DNA from: Roseivivax sp. THAF197b | GTDB taxonomy: Bacteria; Pseudomonadota; Alphaproteobacteria; Rhodobacterales; Rhodobacteraceae | Assembly: GCF_009363255.1 (NCBI RefSeq) | Contig: NZ_CP045318.1 | Location: 3,585,501 to 3,649,500, forward strand | Direction of reading: 5' to 3' | Length of the DNA: 64,000 nt | In this document: positions 11-10,416 of the stretch, in pieces | Position numbering within the stretch: the stretch's first letter is position 1 | How the letters are laid out: every line of letters starts with the position of its first letter | Notes under the pieces: generated by a model | The model's database searches: none | Seen by the model: the letters and a program-made list of their open reading frames with translations, nothing else | What the model was told of the DNA's origin: nothing | Made by a program: the position numbers and the translations under genes

Positions 11-58
11 ATTGGTCGGAGTGGCAGGATTCGAACCTACGACCCCTGCCTTCCGAAG
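11..58 (-). repeat. tRNA-Pro 3' fragment, left attachment site
   Basis: On the minus strand this reads as the anticodon-loop-to-CCA part of a tRNA-Pro. It aligns with 10338-10385 over 48 positions with five differences. Exact blocks are 15 bp (11-25, acceptor and CCA) and 13 bp (39-51). Four of the five differences are two compensated base pairs in the T stem. Upstream of the anticodon loop (59 onward) there is no D arm or 5' acceptor strand, so this is not a complete tRNA. It is the att copy left at the far end of the island. Confidence 0.8.
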
Positions 59-227: not shown

Positions 228-1508
228 ATGACCCCAGATCGACTGACCAAGACGGTAGTGGACAAGCTCGAACCACGTGAAAAAGAGTACTTTGTCTGGT
301 GCGGCAAACTGGCGGGCTTTGGCGTCCGGGTCTGGCCAACAGGCCGAAAGGTCTTCGTAGTGCAGTATCGTGCTGGAGGCAGGGACGCCCCAACTCGCCG
401 CAAGTCCCTCGGGGTCTTTGGCACCGTCACCACCGACGAGGCCCGCAAAACTGCAGAATCGTACCTCGCGTCCGCACACCTCGGAAACGATCTGGTTGGG
501 GAAAAACGACAGGCACGGGGAGAAATGACCGTGGGCCAGCTCTGCGACGACTACATCAAGCACGGAATGACGACCAAGAAGCCCAGCACTATCAAGACGG
601 ACCTTGGGCGGATTAACGGACACATTCGACCGCTGATCGGGAAGAAGAAAATCAACTCCCTTACCCGACGCGACGTTGAACAGCTTTTGCGGGACGTTGC
701 AGTAGGCAAGACGGCTCGGGACACACGCACCGTAAAGGGCCGTTCGATCATTAAAGGCGGCAAGGGCACTGCGACGCGAACCGTTCGGCTGCTAGGCGGC
801 ATGTTTACCTACGCGTTGAACCACGGTTTGGTAGAAACCAACCCATGCGCAGGAGTGAAGGTCTTTAAAGATGGGTCAAAGGAACGGTTCTTGCGTCAGA
901 TCGAGTTGGATAACTTGGCCAAGACACTTGAAGAGGCCGAGACCACCGGCTTGCCTTGGACGCTAAGAACCGAAGCCAAGGCCAAACACCGACCGAATGA
1001 AGAACACATGCGCGAAATTATGTCGCCTCATGTGACCGGTGCAATCCGTCTGCTCTTGCTCACTGGGTGCCGCCTTCGCGAAATCCTGCATCTTCGCTGG
1101 AACGAGGTGGATTTGGAGCGCGGCTTACTGAACCTTCCCGACAGCAAGACCGGACGTAAGACAGTCTACCTGTCGAATGCCGCAATTCAGGTCTTGGAGC
1201 GCCTTCCCCGCGCGGGAGTCTATGTTGTCGCGGGTGACAACCCATGCAAGCCGCGAGCCGACCTAAAACGTCCTTGGAAACGAATTTCGGAACACGCCGG
1301 GATCGCAGATGTCCGCATCCACGATCTACGGCGCACGTTCGCGTCAATTGGCGCCGCACAGGGTTTAAGCCTTCAAGTCATCGGTAAGCTCTTGGGCCAC
1401 AAATCTGCGGAAACAACAGCCAGGTACGCACACTTGACCGAAGACCCTTTGCGGCGAGCGTTGAATGACATGTCCGTCAGCTTGCCGTTTGGGAAAGGCG
1501 ACGATTAA
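228..1508 (+). CDS. site-specific tyrosine integrase, P4-type
   Basis: This 426-residue tyrosine recombinase is probably responsible for integration into and excision from tRNA-Pro. The N-terminus (about 1-75) is the Arm-DNA-binding (DUF4102-type) domain with LTKTVVDKLEP and GFGVRV motifs. A SAM-like core-binding domain spans about 95-190, followed by the catalytic domain. The catalytic set is visible: Arg282 in TGCRLREIL, His365 and Arg368 in HDLRR, His391 in LGHKS and Tyr400 in ARYAH. The start at 228 gives the N-terminus usual for the family, although no clear Shine-Dalgarno precedes it. It lies next to the left att fragment, with the repeated arm-like sites overlapping its leader. It appears intact and functional. 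Confidence 0.95.
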   Translation: MTPDRLTKTVVDKLEPREKEYFVWCGKLAGFGVRVWPTGRKVFVVQYRAGGRDAPTRRKSLGVFGTVTTDEARKTAESYLASAHLGNDLVGEKRQARGEMTVGQLCDDYIKHGMTTKKPSTIKTDLGRINGHIRPLIGKKKINSLTRRDVEQLLRDVAVGKTARDTRTVKGRSIIKGGKGTATRTVRLLGGMFTYALNHGLVETNPCAGVKVFKDGSKERFLRQIELDNLAKTLEEAETTGLPWTLRTEAKAKHRPNEEHMREIMSPHVTGAIRLLLLTGCRLREILHLRWNEVDLERGLLNLPDSKTGRKTVYLSNAAIQVLERLPRAGVYVVAGDNPCKPRADLKRPWKRISEHAGIADVRIHDLRRTFASIGAAQGLSLQVIGKLLGHKSAETTARYAHLTEDPLRRALNDMSVSLPFGKGDD

Positions 1509-2206: not shown

Positions 2207-2230
2207 TCCGCAAGGATGGGGAGGCTCGAA

Positions 2231-3319
2231 ATGACGGGCCTTCCGACATCCTTTCACCTAACCGACGAGTGGATACGCTCACTACCCACCCCAACAAAGG
2301 AGACACGGATTTTCGATACCGAATGCAGGTCACTCCTAGTTCGGTGCAGGCCAAGTGGTTCAAAATCCTTCTATTTCCAGTCTTACGAATGGTCCAATCC
2401 TAAGTCCATGGATTGGAGTCAATTTTACTACGCAATCGGCTCCGTTCGAAAGCTTACCGTTTCGGAGGCGCGAATAATCGCACGCAGGGCGGAGAAAATT
2501 CCATCACTCTTAGACCGTGAAGCACGTGTTTCTCGGAAAGCTCCTCTAGCGGATATAATCAAAATGTATATGAGCGAAGGAATGGAAGGAAGACGAGGCA
2601 TTTGCTTCTCAGCACACACAGCGCATCTATCCGTGAAATACCTGATGCGTCACCTCCCCAAGATAATGGGAAGCCAAAGATTATGTGATTTGTCGCAAGC
2701 CGATCTCATGGAGTACTTTGAGCGGCTCAATATGCATAGCCCCACCGAAGCCGAACACGCACACAAGAAAGCTAAGGCGTTTCTGTACTGGTGTGCAAGC
2801 GCGGGAATAGTGAAAGCAAATCCGCTCACGAAAACCAAGCTTCCCAAAGCCAGTCGAGGTACACGCCGCGATATTTCTTTCACTGAAATTGCAAAAATTT
2901 ACCTGGCAACCCAGGAAATAGATAACGTTTCCGCCAGGCTTGTCCGGTTTTCCATAATCACCGCGTGCGATTTTAAGAGGGCACGCAACGCGAAAATCAT
3001 CGACGTTTGCGGAAGAATACATAGATGGCACCCATCGAACTGGCCTGCGATTCCGAGATCAACTCGGAACCTAATTGACCTTTCAAACGAATATGATTGG
3101 TGCTTTCCCTCGCCAAGAAATCCCCGCAGGCCGATCCATGTCTCAAAGGAGTTCATGGCAAGGCTAGCGGAAGAGGCCAGATTGCCTTTTACCCTATATG
3201 CGCGCGACCTCGTAAAATCTACACAGCACTTCGCGTTCAAAAAAGCTAGCCTAGAAGAGTGGGAAAGCTGCCTCGAAGACGAATGCAGAGAATTAAGAGG
3301 TGACGACGTTGTGCCCTGA
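2231..3319 (+). CDS. tyrosine-recombinase-like protein lacking catalytic residues
   Basis: This 362-residue protein has an integrase fold outline. The N-terminal 85 residues resemble an Arm-binding domain (FDTECRSLLVRCRPSGSKSF, then AIGSVRKLTVSEAR), and a core-binding segment follows at about 100-215. The C-terminal region aligns only weakly with a catalytic domain. The box I arginine is absent (TACDFKRARN), the HxxR box appears as ARDLVKST with both residues replaced, and no second His box or catalytic Tyr follows. The ATG at 2231 has GGGGAGG at 2218-2224; the upstream in-frame ATG at 2216 lies inside that site. It may be a DNA-binding accessory or regulator, or a decaying gene. Base use is AT-richer than the integrase at 228. 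Confidence 0.6.
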   Translation: MTGLPTSFHLTDEWIRSLPTPTKETRIFDTECRSLLVRCRPSGSKSFYFQSYEWSNPKSMDWSQFYYAIGSVRKLTVSEARIIARRAEKIPSLLDREARVSRKAPLADIIKMYMSEGMEGRRGICFSAHTAHLSVKYLMRHLPKIMGSQRLCDLSQADLMEYFERLNMHSPTEAEHAHKKAKAFLYWCASAGIVKANPLTKTKLPKASRGTRRDISFTEIAKIYLATQEIDNVSARLVRFSIITACDFKRARNAKIIDVCGRIHRWHPSNWPAIPRSTRNLIDLSNEYDWCFPSPRNPRRPIHVSKEFMARLAEEARLPFTLYARDLVKSTQHFAFKKASLEEWESCLEDECRELRGDDVVP

Positions 3320-4113: not shown

Positions 4114-4190
4114 TCAAACAGCTTCAACGCTGGGGCAGGCGAGCGTCACGCTGCGGCAGTAGCGAAACGATGCGGACAAAGGGGCAGAAT

Positions 4191-5804
4191 GTGTCACGAC
4201 TTACGGACTTGATCGCGCAGGCCAAGGCGAAAGATGCCGATCTAGGGAGAGAGCTGGAGCGGGAGTTCAAGGCCTACACGAACAGGCGGGCCTTTGGCCT
4301 CAACTTCGAACGACATCGGCCTGAGAGCGTGGAGCTGCCAGGGCGACCGATCCGTAAGGGCGACAAGGTCCGTATCCTACCGCCGCGTGGCGAGACGAAG
4401 AAGGGAGATCTGCGGCTCTGGAAGGTGCGCAGCCTGTCTGGCAAAGGGGCCGAGCGCGTGGCCCAGGTTGAGCTGATCGGCGGAGTGGAGCCGGAGACGC
4501 AGGAGGTTGCGGTGGCCGATCTGATCGTGGTCGCGGAGTTTCGCGACTATATCTACCCCGGCCTCGTTAGCACCGGAAAGGTCGAGCGCGGCAGCACCGA
4601 CTGGCGTAGGGAAACCAGGCCTAACGGATTCTATCCTCTACATATCTCACTCACTGATGGAAAACTTGTGTCGGTAGGAGAACCACTCCCGCTAGAAACC
4701 GAAAGGCAATCGTATCAAGCTCCTGAAGGTACATTTGCTGTCTGGCCCCTTGATCCGAGTGGTGAAGACAGCCGATGGCAAATTTCACCGGAAAGACTTC
4801 GCAAGCAACTTGATGACGGCACAGCCGCGCTAAAGGATGCTGACCCAAAGACTGGCTCCGCATCTGTTATCTATCTGAAATCTGGCGACATTAGGCGGGT
4901 CGAAAGTGGAGAGTTGAAGGTGGTCGGAAGGAGTGATGATGGCCGGATCATCACTGAGGCAGGAGAACGTGCAGCTCGAAAGGCCAAGACCATGTGGACG
5001 GTGGGTGCGCATGACGCGAGCGCCCACGGTACGGCGCTTCTCAGCCGTTTCGTGCCAACCCGAAAATTCCCATTTCCGAAATCGCTATATGCGGTGGAAG
5101 ACGCAATTCGCTTTTTTGTGTCACGCAAACCTGACGCAACTATCCTGGATTTTTTCTCAGGCTCGGGAACAACAGCCCATGCTGTTATGCGCCTCAACCG
5201 TCAGGACGGAGGCAACCGGCAGTGCATTTCAGTCACCAACAACGAAGTAGCAGCGGAAGAGCAAGCCAAGCTCCGAAAAGATGGCCTTCGCCCCGGCGAT
5301 CCTGATTGGGAACAATGGGGAATCTGCGACTACATTACCAAACCCCGGATCAAGGCCGCGATCACTGGCAAGACGCCAGACGGTGAGTTTATCCAAGGGG
5401 ACTACAAATTCACCGACGAGTTCCCAATGGCCGAAGGCTTTGAGGAAAACGCTGAGTTTTTCACCCTCACCTATGAAACTCCGGTGGCCGTCAGCCACAA
5501 CCGCGCCTTCGCTCGGATCGCCCCGCTTCTGTGGATGCGGGCGGGTAGCGAAGGGCGGCGGATTGATAAGGAACCAACGGAAGGCTGGGAAGTGGCCGAT
5601 ACCTACGGCCTTCTGACCAATCTCGACCGCGCCGCCTCCTTCTGCACCGAGATCGCCGTCAAAGGCGGCATCCGCATCGCCTATGTCGTTACCGATGACG
5701 AGCGGCGATTTCAGGCCGTCACACGGGAATTGCCCGCTGGGGTTGAGCCTGTGCGCCTGTACGAATCCTACCTAACCAATTTCCGCTTCGCGATGGGGCG
5801 CTGA
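4191..5804 (+). CDS. type III restriction system Mod subunit with in-frame loss of DPPY region
   Basis: This is a Mod-type DNA adenine methyltransferase of a type III system. GTG at 4191 is chosen because the family starts SRLTDLIAQAKAKD and AAGGGG lies just before it; an upstream ATG at 4170 adds seven extra residues. Residues 1-134 match the N-terminus up to IYPGLVSTGKVERG. Intact relatives then continue through a TVINGEN segment and the DPPYNTG catalytic motif. Here the sequence jumps at about 134/135 (nt 4590) straight to a WRRETRPNGFYPL-like segment. The AdoMet-binding motif is present at about 320-328 (DFFSGSGTT), as is the full C-terminus ending YLTNF. At 537 residues it is roughly 150-200 shorter than I expect for the family. 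It is probably unable to methylate. The central part is AT-richer, as recognition domains often are. It lies three bases before res. Confidence 0.85.
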   Translation: MSRLTDLIAQAKAKDADLGRELEREFKAYTNRRAFGLNFERHRPESVELPGRPIRKGDKVRILPPRGETKKGDLRLWKVRSLSGKGAERVAQVELIGGVEPETQEVAVADLIVVAEFRDYIYPGLVSTGKVERGSTDWRRETRPNGFYPLHISLTDGKLVSVGEPLPLETERQSYQAPEGTFAVWPLDPSGEDSRWQISPERLRKQLDDGTAALKDADPKTGSASVIYLKSGDIRRVESGELKVVGRSDDGRIITEAGERAARKAKTMWTVGAHDASAHGTALLSRFVPTRKFPFPKSLYAVEDAIRFFVSRKPDATILDFFSGSGTTAHAVMRLNRQDGGNRQCISVTNNEVAAEEQAKLRKDGLRPGDPDWEQWGICDYITKPRIKAAITGKTPDGEFIQGDYKFTDEFPMAEGFEENAEFFTLTYETPVAVSHNRAFARIAPLLWMRAGSEGRRIDKEPTEGWEVADTYGLLTNLDRAASFCTEIAVKGGIRIAYVVTDDERRFQAVTRELPAGVEPVRLYESYLTNFRFAMGR

Positions 5805-5807
5805 GAC

Positions 5808-8414
5808 ATGAAGTTTACGCTTATCGACTATCAGGCCCAAGCCGTGGCCGACGTGTTGGACAACATGAAAAAGGCGCGGGTGTTCTGGCAAGATCACGAC
5901 ATGAAAACCGCCTTCTCCCTCGCCGCCACCACCGGCTCCGGTAAGACGGTCATGGCCGCCGCTGTGTTCGAAGCGCTGCTGTTCGGCAATGATGAATTGG
6001 AATTCGAGCCAGACCCCGGCGCGGTCGTGATCTGGTTCAGCGATGACCCTTCGCTAAACACGCAATCAAAATGGCGCTTGCAGGAGGCCTCCGACAAGTT
6101 GACCATTTCCGATCTTGTGACGGTCGAGAACACCTTCAACCGGGAAACCCTGGAAGCCGGGAAGATCTACTTCCTCAACACGCAAAAGCTATCCAAGAGC
6201 AGCCTTCTGACACGCGGACATGACCCGGACGACGACAGCCTGGAGACAGCAGATGGGCAGAAAATCATGCCCGACATGCGCGCGTTCACCATCTGGGATA
6301 CTATCCGCAACACCATCGAAAACCCCGACTTGACGCTCTACCTCGTGCTGGACGAAGCGCACCGGGGCATGAAGGCTGATGGCGGGGTTGCCGGAGCCTC
6401 CGGTAGGCAGACTATAGTCAAGCAGCTCATCAACGGCTCAGGCGGCACGCCCGCCATTCCGATTGTCTGGGGTATCTCCGCCACCGTTGACCGCTTCAAC
6501 AAGGCGTTGAAGGACATGCAGGGGCGCACCACGTTGCCGCATGTTCAGGTGGACGCCGGGCTGGTTCAGGCATCGGGCCTCTTGAAGGACACGATCACGA
6601 TGGACGTACCCGACGAGGTCGGGGATTTCGAAACCGTGCTTTTGCGCCGTGGGGCCGACAAGCTTCGCGAGATCACTGAGGCCTGGGCAGGTTATGCGTA
6701 CGAACAAGGCGACGGGAGTAAGGTTCAGCCGCTCTTGGTGCTGCAAGTGCCTGACGCACCAAACCCCAAAGATATTGGAAAATGGCTGGACATCATCCTT
6801 GAGCGGTTTCCCGATCTTCCCGAGGACAGCATCGCCAACGTGTTCGGGGAGCATAAAACCGAGACCTTTGGCCGTCACACCGTTCCCTATATAGAGCCGC
6901 AGCGGGTCCAACAGGACGCTTGGGTACGCATCCTGATAGCCAAGAACGCGATCAGCACCGGTTGGGACTGCCCCCGCGCCGAAGTGATGGTTTCGCTTCG
7001 CGCCGCGTCTGACAGGACGCACATCACGCAGCTCTTGGGTCGGATGGTACGTACCCCGCTCGCGCGGCGGATTTCGGGCAATGACCGCCTGAACGCTGTC
7101 GATTGTCTCCTACCCCATTTCAACAAAGAGACCGTCACAGCGGTTGTCGATGAACTGATGAAGGGCGGCGAGAGTGGCGAAGAACTACCCGGTCGCCGCG
7201 TCCTGATCAATCCGCGCGAAATGAAACCGAACCCGGCAATTCCTGAAGAGGTTTGGGAAAAGCTGACTTCGCTACCCTCTCAGACCTTGCCAAAGAAGCA
7301 GGCCAGACCGGTGAAACGACTGACCGCTTTGGCGCATGAACTGGCGATGGACGACCTTCTACCTGATGCCGGGAAGAAGGCACACGAAGCGATGCACGCC
7401 GTTCTGGACGCCTCGGTGGAAACATATGCAACCAAGATCACCGAAGCCCGCGCATCCGTCTTAACCGTCGAAGGGAAAACCCTTTCAGCGGACACGAAGA
7501 CGCGGGAAATGTCGTTCGATGACTTTGTTGAAGCTGCCGACTATGCGGTTATCGAAGATGCATACAAGCGAGCCGGACGGGCCATTAGTCCTGACCTGGC
7601 CACGACCTACGCAGAGCATTTGGCTGGGGGCATGGAAGACCAAGAGGACGAGGAAGAAGCACTGATCGAAGCACACACGATCATCGCAGCAATCGGATTG
7701 GTGCCGAAGATCAAAGACGATTTGGAGGCAGAAGCCGAGAAACTGGCGAGGGAATGGCTGGGAACCCACAAGGGTGCGATCAAGGGCCTCACTGATGAAA
7801 GGCAAGAAGCCTATCGCCAGATTCGGGAAATGAGCACGGACCCGCTCCCGGTCGAAATCGCCCGGCCACATATGTGGCTGCAACCGACAACAGCGCGTGA
7901 ACCGAACGGCAAGGAATATGACCTTGAACGGTTTGAAGGCCACTTGCTTTGCGACGAGGACGGCCTTTTTCCTGATGCTTTCAATTCGTCTTGGGAACCT
8001 GCTGTTTTACGGGCTGAGCTTCAGAAGGAAGGGAGCATCGGCTGGTACCGGAACCCAGCGCGCGCAAGCCAGGATTCTTTGGGGGTTGTATATGAGGAGG
8101 CAGGGGAAAACCGATTGGTCCGCCCGGACTTCATTTTCTTTGTGCAGATGGAAGATGGCAGCATCGCCGCCGACTTGATCGACCCACATGGGGACCATCT
8201 CGCAGATGCCCTGCCGAAACTTAAAGGGCTGACGAAATATGCTGCCAGGAATCTGGAGACCTTCCGACGCATGGAGGCGATCACGAAACTGAAAAAGACC
8301 GGAACTTATCGGATGCTCGACCTGACTAACGAGGAAGTGAGAGAGGCTGTCGAGGCCGCAACGAGTGCCGAAGAACTTTACGGTAGCCCGATGGCCGAAG
8401 ACTACGTTGTATAA
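5808..8414 (+). CDS. type III restriction system Res subunit (helicase/nuclease)
   Basis: This 868-residue SF2 ATPase is the restriction partner of the Mod gene just upstream. Motif I is TTGSGKT (GSGKT 43-47), the DEAH box is at 182-185, motif III is GISAT near 225, and motif VI is QLLGRMVR near 410. A long helical region follows. Near the C-terminus a PD-(D/E)xK-like segment starts at RPDFIFF (Asp774) and continues ADLIDPHGDH, fitting the endonuclease domain of Res proteins. The reading frame is complete and shows no damage, in contrast to Mod. Type III Res normally needs Mod for target recognition, so its activity in this strain is uncertain. Confidence 0.9.
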   Translation: MKFTLIDYQAQAVADVLDNMKKARVFWQDHDMKTAFSLAATTGSGKTVMAAAVFEALLFGNDELEFEPDPGAVVIWFSDDPSLNTQSKWRLQEASDKLTISDLVTVENTFNRETLEAGKIYFLNTQKLSKSSLLTRGHDPDDDSLETADGQKIMPDMRAFTIWDTIRNTIENPDLTLYLVLDEAHRGMKADGGVAGASGRQTIVKQLINGSGGTPAIPIVWGISATVDRFNKALKDMQGRTTLPHVQVDAGLVQASGLLKDTITMDVPDEVGDFETVLLRRGADKLREITEAWAGYAYEQGDGSKVQPLLVLQVPDAPNPKDIGKWLDIILERFPDLPEDSIANVFGEHKTETFGRHTVPYIEPQRVQQDAWVRILIAKNAISTGWDCPRAEVMVSLRAASDRTHITQLLGRMVRTPLARRISGNDRLNAVDCLLPHFNKETVTAVVDELMKGGESGEELPGRRVLINPREMKPNPAIPEEVWEKLTSLPSQTLPKKQARPVKRLTALAHELAMDDLLPDAGKKAHEAMHAVLDASVETYATKITEARASVLTVEGKTLSADTKTREMSFDDFVEAADYAVIEDAYKRAGRAISPDLATTYAEHLAGGMEDQEDEEEALIEAHTIIAAIGLVPKIKDDLEAEAEKLAREWLGTHKGAIKGLTDERQEAYRQIREMSTDPLPVEIARPHMWLQPTTAREPNGKEYDLERFEGHLLCDEDGLFPDAFNSSWEPAVLRAELQKEGSIGWYRNPARASQDSLGVVYEEAGENRLVRPDFIFFVQMEDGSIAADLIDPHGDHLADALPKLKGLTKYAARNLETFRRMEAITKLKKTGTYRMLDLTNEEVREAVEAATSAEELYGSPMAEDYVV

Positions 8415-8698: not shown

Positions 8699-9085
8699 AT
8701 GATCACTGACGCGGCAAAGTCAGCCTTTTCTTACGCGAGAAGGCTATCCCCGATTTTTGTCGCTAAGCGACCGGGTGGAGACGCCGATATTCGAGTAGGA
8801 TACTACGGCCAAGTCGGTCCGTCCGCCACAAACCGGGTTCTATCTTTTCAAGGAAGCCTTTCCCATGAGCTGGGGATAACTTCAGTTATGCAATCCATTG
8901 AGGACGGATGCTTCGAGTGTACTTTCAGCATTGGCGGGTCGCAAGAAGCCCAGAGATTGTCAGGGTTGATTGAGCAAGGTCAGTTCGACAGCCTGGCATA
9001 TAGGTACCGCATTCTGTTTGTTCGGTTTCTAACAGACCCCGATCTTGACGAGGTCCATTTCGAGCGGGATAGTCTTTTTCGCTAA
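8699..9085 (+). CDS. unknown protein paired with phosphorylase-like gene
   Basis: This 128-residue soluble protein has no domain I recognise. Visible features are a basic N-terminal helix (SAFSYARRLSPIF), a GGDADIRVGYYG segment and an acidic C-terminus (DPDLDEVHFERDSLF), compatible with a small alpha/beta fold. It follows 284 bp of non-coding DNA that may hold its promoter (TCGACA near 8608 and TATATG near 8633, weakly spaced). It ends 16 bp before the phosphorylase-like gene, so the two are almost certainly one transcript. By analogy with other two-gene defence modules it could be a sensor, inhibitor or co-factor of the enzyme; this is inference. Confidence 0.6.
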   Translation: MITDAAKSAFSYARRLSPIFVAKRPGGDADIRVGYYGQVGPSATNRVLSFQGSLSHELGITSVMQSIEDGCFECTFSIGGSQEAQRLSGLIEQGQFDSLAYRYRILFVRFLTDPDLDEVHFERDSLFR

Positions 9086-9101
9086 GAGGTGGAGAGCAGA
9101 A

Positions 9102-10088
9102 ATGGCAGTCAAAAAGCGCGATGTTTCCGCGCAAGAGGAATACGACATCGAAGATTGCGATGTCCTGATCTTTACCGCGATTGAGGATTTAGAAGCCCAC
9201 GCTCTCACAAACCACCTAAAGCGAGTGGGAGCCGTCTACAAAGAACAGACAAAGGCGGAGCGCCTGAAAGACCTGCACCGGTGGAGTCTTCCAAGAAATC
9301 ACGATGTACCAGAGCTCCGTTTGCTTACGCGATGTTTGCAAAGAGCTGGAAACGGGTATTCTGGAATCGAGCTTTCACATCTTCTACACACCCAACACAG
9401 GCCAAAGCTTGTGGTTTTCTGCGGAATCGGTGGTTCATTGGACGTGAAAGAAGCTCAGCTAGGGAATGTAATTGTATCGAGCAATGTCAATTGGAAGGGG
9501 TTCGACAAAATATCAGGTGATAGCGTTTCTAAGGAAATGCGCAAAATATCCCTTGATGAGCATCCAGTAAACGAACGCCTTCAGAACCTTGTTAAGAGCT
9601 TCATCAGGGACAACAACGCTGCAACGGACGCAGAGGCACCTGCACGCGGTTTGTTCAAAACCGATAGGGATTCAGGATTCTGGTCGGCCTCCGAGCGCTG
9701 GCTTGGGACAGCAAAAGCTGATGCAGACTTGCGGCCTGACATCGAAAATTTTGAGGTTCATCAGTACTATGACCGCGTGAAGCCAATTGTGCGGTTGGGC
9801 AAGGTCATGTCTTGGGACTTTGTACTAAATAAAAAATCTATCCGAGAAGAGGTTAAGAATGACGACAAAGAATTCTTGGTCGTGGAAATGGAGACTGGAG
9901 GGATGGCGCTAGCGGCTCGCCGGGCGCGAGAGCACTTTCGGGATTCGATGACGGAAGTGATGGCCGTGCGAGGGATTTCAGACCTCTGCAACAAAAAGAC
10001 CGACGATGTTTTTCGCGAACTTGCCGCGGATCATGCCGCTGCGTTTTTGATCGGATTTTTGCAGTCTGGCTACGATGAGGAGTTTTGA
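9102..10088 (+). CDS. nucleoside phosphorylase/nucleosidase-superfamily protein, possible defence effector
   Basis: This 328-residue protein has the marks of the PNP/MTAN superfamily: an N-terminal beta strand DVLIFTAIEDLEAHAL, the glycine motif CGIGGS at 107-112 followed by QLGNVIVSS, the ribose-binding VEMET at 261-265, and VRGISD at 289-294 with the Asp expected to act on the base. The ATG at 9102 follows GGTGGAG; an upstream in-frame ATG at 9045 would overlap the previous gene. The superfamily cleaves N-glycosidic bonds of nucleosides, and some members are effectors in bacterial anti-phage systems that destroy ATP or other nucleotides. Placement beside a restriction system at the end of an integrative island supports a defence role, which remains unproven. 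It is not a housekeeping mtnN: it is longer and the sequence is divergent. Confidence 0.75.
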   Translation: MAVKKRDVSAQEEYDIEDCDVLIFTAIEDLEAHALTNHLKRVGAVYKEQTKAERLKDLHRWSLPRNHDVPELRLLTRCLQRAGNGYSGIELSHLLHTQHRPKLVVFCGIGGSLDVKEAQLGNVIVSSNVNWKGFDKISGDSVSKEMRKISLDEHPVNERLQNLVKSFIRDNNAATDAEAPARGLFKTDRDSGFWSASERWLGTAKADADLRPDIENFEVHQYYDRVKPIVRLGKVMSWDFVLNKKSIREEVKNDDKEFLVVEMETGGMALAARRAREHFRDSMTEVMAVRGISDLCNKKTDDVFRELAADHAAAFLIGFLQSGYDEEF

Positions 10089-10306: not shown

Positions 10307-10339
10307 ACCCGCAGATTTCAGCTAAGTCATTGATTTAAT

Positions 10340-10416
10340 TGGTCGGAGTGGCGAGATTCGAACTCACGACCCCTGCCTCCCGAAGACAGTGCTCTACCAG
10401 GCTGAGCTACACTCCG
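10340..10416 (-). tRNA. tRNA-Pro(CGG)
   Basis: This is a complete 77 nt tRNA on the minus strand with encoded CCA. The acceptor CGGAGTG/CACTCCG pairs fully. The D arm is GCTC/GAGC, the anticodon stem CTGTC/GGCAG holds loop TTCGGGA (anticodon CGG with G37), and the T arm is GTGAG-TTCGAAT-CTCGC. Its 3' half is the right att site of the island, so part of the gene may come from the element. Confidence 0.95.

Follow-up and report, generated by a model that had tools for sequence, protein, structure and literature searches.

A Type III restriction-modification locus with an in-frame deletion in mod, most likely silent, on an integrative island of Roseivivax sp. THAF197b

The stretch of the Roseivivax sp. 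THAF197b genome analyzed here (64,000 nt, termed the window) carries a Type III mod-res locus in which 522 nt of mod are missing in frame. The deletion is real, as confirmed by the gene structure and the missing catalytic half. We put the probability at roughly four in five that this island-borne locus was recently inactivated by the deletion, and that it now neither restricts nor modifies DNA.

The mod open reading frame encodes 537 amino acids (P0001; window 4191-5804, + strand) from a GTG start, and an alternative ATG at 4170 would give a 544-aa product. The initial annotation had described this gene as a Mod lacking its DPPY segment in frame near nt 4590, with the AdoMet motif and the C-terminus kept, and had proposed an alignment to intact relatives. 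This alignment agrees with the description on each point: the protein aligns to residues 2-134 and then 307-711 of the 711-aa relative P0002, leaving a gap of 174 residues (711 - 537; 522 nt) that corresponds to about residues 133-306 of P0002, and both DFFSGSGTT and the complete C-terminus are retained (Table 1). The two matching stretches overlap by the residues R-G (nt 4587-4592), so the deletion edge can be placed only to within these two residues; in relatives, R-G is found at either end of the deleted segment. The deletion takes with it DPPYNTG, the remainder of the first half of the methyltransferase domain, and the lead-in to the target-recognition region. The other Mod relatives (119, among the matches listed) are 703-751 aa long, and in these the deleted segment holds 66 columns with a conservation of 97% or more. 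Among profile matches, PF01555 aligns to the window Mod over the later part of the profile alone (positions 136-208 of 221), and the PADLOC profile MTase_III (PDLC03645; 709 positions) is matched in two stretches (E 2.8e-205), of which the best spans positions 312-708, although the protein lacks the catalytic segment. Type III Mod descent, an adjoining res, and an AdoMet motif I placed after the recognition region are all seen at this locus, and the catalytic motif IV (DPPY/F) is absent from the ORF. Judged by its sequence, this gene is derived from Type III Mods yet lacks their defining catalytic motif, and it should therefore not be filed as a methylase.

Table 1. Features of the mod-res locus and of the island that carries it (window coordinates).
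Feature	Position	Strand	Basis
att repeat, left end of island	11..58		repeat comparison
Tyrosine integrase of island, beside left repeat	228..1508	+	domain match
Mod N-terminal part, residues 1-134, colinear with 711-aa relatives	4191..4592	+	82% identity to P0002 residues 2-134
Deletion junction E-R-G-S, 174 residues/522 nt of the Mod family absent	4584..4595	+	alignment to relatives
Retained target-recognition region and the stretch after it, P0002 closest	4593..5147	+	alignment, identity by block
Motif I (AdoMet) DFFSGSGTT, residues 320-328	5148..5174	+	sequence, partial PF01555 match
Mod C-terminal part, complete up to the stop	5175..5804	+	alignment to P0002
res, 868 aa, full length, begins 3 nt past the mod stop	5808..8414	+	ORF, alignment
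Res Walker A TGSGKT	5931..5948	+	aligned Res
Res DEAH	6351..6362	+	aligned Res
Res nuclease motif P-D-F ... D-P-H-G, histidine replacing the usual lysine	8124..8192	+	aligned Res, fold comparison
att repeat, right end of island, inside 3' part of tRNA-Pro gene	10338..10385		repeat comparison, tRNA scan
tRNA-Pro (CGG), integration target	10340..10416	-	tRNA scan

The short form is rare among the relatives compared. Two similarity searches together supplied 239 proteins (120 of 7,997 and 120 of 6,670 matches listed, one of them shared), and [DNS]PP[YFW] is missing from two of these, the window Mod and P0060; among the 239 relatives listed, the cluster of P0001 is the only one without the catalytic segment. 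The second search used residues 1-388 as query, with a length rule admitting proteins of up to about 679 aa, and the deletion form was not found among the 119 further short relatives listed, all of which carry [DNS]PP[YFW] (counted anywhere in the protein). Other cases may be hidden beyond the 120 of 7,997 and 120 of 6,670 matches listed. P0001 represents 4 member sequences on 1 contig, and near-identical copies of the short Mod may exist among the other members. P0060 is a full-length Mod relative that reads GPPY for DPPY, and is perhaps another inactive methylase. An exact match to the 27-nt sequence across the junction was not found in viral contigs. P0002 matches 2/9 genomes of the genus, namely the source genome and, weakly, congener G008 (E 8.2e-12, residues 140-240), and 47/394 sampled genomes of the family at E 0.001 with the source genome included, ten of the 47 at better than 1e-50. 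In a leave-one-out comparison, the remainder of the window Mod deviates at 0/162 conserved columns (median of the other 119 listed, 1), so the deletion event is probably young; the same unchanged columns and kept reading frame would also appear if the short protein were under selection.

The res gene is complete, as had been annotated, and encodes a full-length 868-aa protein in which the helicase motifs Walker A and DEAH are present and the canonical PD-(D/E)XK motif with its lysine is absent. D-x-H occurs in 52/52 aligned Res proteins including that of the window, D-P-H in 51/52 of them, and D-P-H stands at motif III in 120/120 Res proteins among the matches listed, the window's own included. 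A lysine ten residues past D-P-H (K804) is conserved in 50/52 aligned Res, and may have taken over from the missing motif lysine. The lysine motif was read in five of eight Type III loci from other genomes (L121, L123, L126, L127, and L128); nothing convincing fitted the pattern in L124 and L125, and no Res was recognized in L122. Damage to Res was considered and rejected, as none is seen: in a leave-one-out count the protein deviates at 2/207 conserved columns (median of the others, 1), and 23/51 other Res deviate as much or more. PF27151 is listed for relatives of this Res. There was no PDB sequence match to Res at E 0.001, a profile of its C-terminal part gave nothing convincing against the PDB (best E 0.15), and no Pfam family was found for that part. 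None of the titles in the literature listings, PMC1913061 among them, concerns a Type III Res with histidine in this motif.

The initial annotation had reasoned that a Mod which still recognizes DNA and cannot methylate it would be harmful beside an active Res, and had offered a silent system, an altered function, or a Mod supplied in trans as possible outcomes. For EcoP15I, passages of PMC4490356 assign Mod residues 62-262 and 390-516 to a methyltransferase hub with the recognition domain between them, and describe a Mod that dimerizes via its NTD and MTase domains, contacts Res via its MTase domain and CTD, and holds the flipped target base with DPPY. On this layout, the window Mod has lost the pocket for the target base, roughly half of the hub, and the segment that leads into the recognition region. 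With its target-base pocket gone, the short Mod would be unable to methylate; with half of the methyltransferase hub missing, the normal Mod2Res complex would fail to form; and Res, lacking a working Mod, would be unstable or unable to find its sites. Res would then be harmless, and the cell neither modified nor restricted by this system. Type III restriction requires both subunits, Mod included, according to parts of PMC8259958, which also report two systems in which methylation by Mod depends on Res. In an excerpt of the review PMC3874151, Mod is said to positively regulate the amount of Res (Redaschi and Bickle), and protection from proteolysis by Mod is postulated as the cause of the higher amount. 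Because Mod is needed for restriction and is reported to stabilize Res, its loss would be expected to leave Res silent, not set free. The expected harm is thus not supported, the deleted half belonging, in EcoP15I, to the hub that dimerizes and touches Res, and silence emerges as the likeliest of the three states, given that restriction needs Mod. As to the premise, an inability to methylate is to be expected with DPPY absent, and continued DNA recognition is a weak proposition in view of the lost half of the hub, the lost lead-in to the recognition domain, and a poor structural model.

The predicted structure of the short Mod has a mean pLDDT of 61.5 and a pTM of 0.33. In ten-residue blocks, residues 261-300 and 401-460 average 26-45 pLDDT, and residues 141-250, which make up most of the remaining recognition block, average 78-92; in the model, this fairly well-predicted block counts against a loss of DNA recognition. 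The best Foldseek rows for the model are still the Mod structures 6k0w (E 2.8e-5) and 7dsu (E 9.4e-4), with TM-scores of 0.10-0.13. We count this block and these rows, the lack of decay in Res, and the kept frame with its unchanged conserved columns, which are also expected under selection, against a silenced locus. Foldseek rows for this low-confidence model also include chromo-barrel/tudor-like domains (e.g., 2eko, E 1.9e-3), which probably reflect the beta-rich block at the Mod N-terminus. A promoter/terminator scan did not find a forward promoter-like site.

These same features would suit a short Mod that still functions within an altered system, acting as a non-methylating recognition subunit that seats Res on DNA: the reading frame is kept, the conserved positions of the remainder are unchanged, residues 141-250 are modeled with fair confidence, and Res is full length with a nuclease motif that is non-canonical across the family (among the matches listed). 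We nevertheless consider such a role quite unlikely, since the short form occurs in no other relative among the matches listed, the methyltransferase hub is short by half, a recent loss accounts equally well for the unchanged remainder, and an in-frame result arises by chance in one of three cases. More speculative, and highly improbable in our estimate, is a complex in which the retained, non-methylating Mod would position the lysine-free (D-P-H) Res without self-marking, for binding, sliding, or signaling rather than for cutting. An assembly or sequencing error over an intact mod gene is very unlikely. An identical Res is recorded on two contigs (the longest of 3,876,119 nt) and the short Mod on one (3,794,303 nt), so mod may read differently in a second assembly; against an error, the window lies on a 3,794,303-base contig of a six-contig, 99.93% complete genome, the junction is exactly in frame, and in 51 intact relatives, although these are not closely related, the sequences up to 60 nt around one breakpoint have no exact word of more than 10 nt in common with those around the other. 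It is ordinary for the two breakpoint regions to share words of 6-10 nt (median 7 among the 51 relatives), and slippage on short repeats is not claimed as a cause. The supply of Mod in trans did not find support either. The genome search for a second copy that the initial annotation had suggested, run with P0002 as query at E 0.001, returned nothing beyond the two halves of the window mod, and of the three PF01555 matches in the genome, the two outside the window mod are of other kinds: a 369-aa protein looks like a CcrM-type methylase, and a 431-aa protein looks like a methylase with a ParB-like N-terminus. A second Mod was rejected on these grounds.

How the deletion arose is a separate matter, on which a variant compatible with the silenced locus bears. 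Compared with the 119 listed relatives, mod is a mosaic, its recognition block being nearest to a Mod lineage other than that of its flanks. Residues 135-320 are closest to P0002 (82-94%), and other Mods, e.g., P0060, P0020, P0048, P0092, P0046, and P0010, come closest over residues 1-130 and 321-537; over residues 1-66 and 67-130, the closest proteins (P0060, P0020, P0048, and others) reach 95.5% and 89.1%, vs. 89.4% and 73.4% for P0002. Exchange of recognition blocks is common in such Mods. The deletion may have arisen during or after such an exchange, and it is a tentative possibility that it is the by-product of one that failed, with the left crossover placed in the N-terminal part and not inside the conserved catalytic segment. 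The left-hand jump in identity coincides with the deletion junction, which suggests a failed exchange without proving it. GC3 also changes at the junction, from 0.76 on the left to 0.45 on the right, but the recognition block is normally lower in GC3 (mean N-TRD difference 0.17) and steps as large occur in 5/51 intact relatives, for which reason the step was rejected as proof of exchange. An exchange, being so common, may also predate the deletion, and the comparison covered 119 relatives only.

The mod-res locus lies on a 10.3-kb island bounded by two 48-nt repeats that are identical at 43/48 positions. The tRNA-Pro 3' ends of 8/8 congeners match the left repeat copy at 96-98%, as would be expected had the island carried in a tRNA end of its own. 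In congener G005, about 1.3 kb separates the left flank from the tRNA, so there is no island of 10.3-kb size at that site. A 367-aa ORF (window 2216-3319) gives a borderline match to an integrase arm domain (27.6 bits against a cut-off of 27), does not match the catalytic integrase domain, and is possibly a worn-out second integrase. Toward the right end, a 128-aa ORF (8699-9085) with no match in four libraries precedes a gene for a phosphorylase-superfamily protein (9045-10088, first ATG 9102) that matches PF01048 and, in PADLOC, Effector PN-superfamily and PDC-M60C; the related mod-res loci compared yielded neither of the two.

Loss of one partner beside an intact other also occurs in related loci. 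We surveyed 74 rows with a Mod match, some of them repeats of one locus or cut by sequence ends, and both genes are intact in 44 of these. Three loci pair a disrupted mod with a full-length res (865-868-aa frame): in L036 and L119, mod is interrupted by an ORF read as a putative transposase, and in L020 it lies in two frames, covering residues 1 to about 248-292 and then 335-711. The reverse, an intact mod beside a broken res, is seen in L038 and L043, so neither order of damage is favored. Partial mod genes with a full res at or near contig ends (L028, L042, and L100) were not counted as disrupted. L028 and L064, both from Ferruginivarius sediminum, hold two Mod halves at contig edges, split near residue 350, which may be one Mod, perhaps split by a mobile element. 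Compared with EcoP15I/EcoP1I and the Mod structures 4zcf, 6k0w, and 7dsu (Mbo45V), all three of which are matched by the intact relative P0002 in sequence, the window locus shares the mod-res pair, the beta-class motif order, and a Res with Walker A and DEAH; it differs in having a Mod without motif IV and without the first half of the methyltransferase domain, and a Res that reads D-P-H. In a Mycoplasma mycoides strain, as told in passages of PMC3498834, a frame-shifted mod goes with a lack of MmyCI activity and the strain is viable. That case is alike in its broken mod, whereas its frameshift is repeat-based and possibly reversible, in place of the large deletion found here. The modA11 and modA12 loci of Neisseria gonorrhoeae, in the portion of PMC2667262 that describes them, carry a 250-aa in-frame deletion in res. 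One Type III partner is likewise lost in frame, but there it is res, with Mod kept, and our literature search for an in-frame mod deletion found only such a res case.

The deletion in the window mod thus mirrors the Neisseria res deletions. The locus is a degraded Type III system, ordinary in kind and most likely silent, in which a full-length Res is tolerated next to a Mod that has lost its catalytic half. It is a clean natural example of the rule that restriction by Type III systems depends on Mod for more than methylation.
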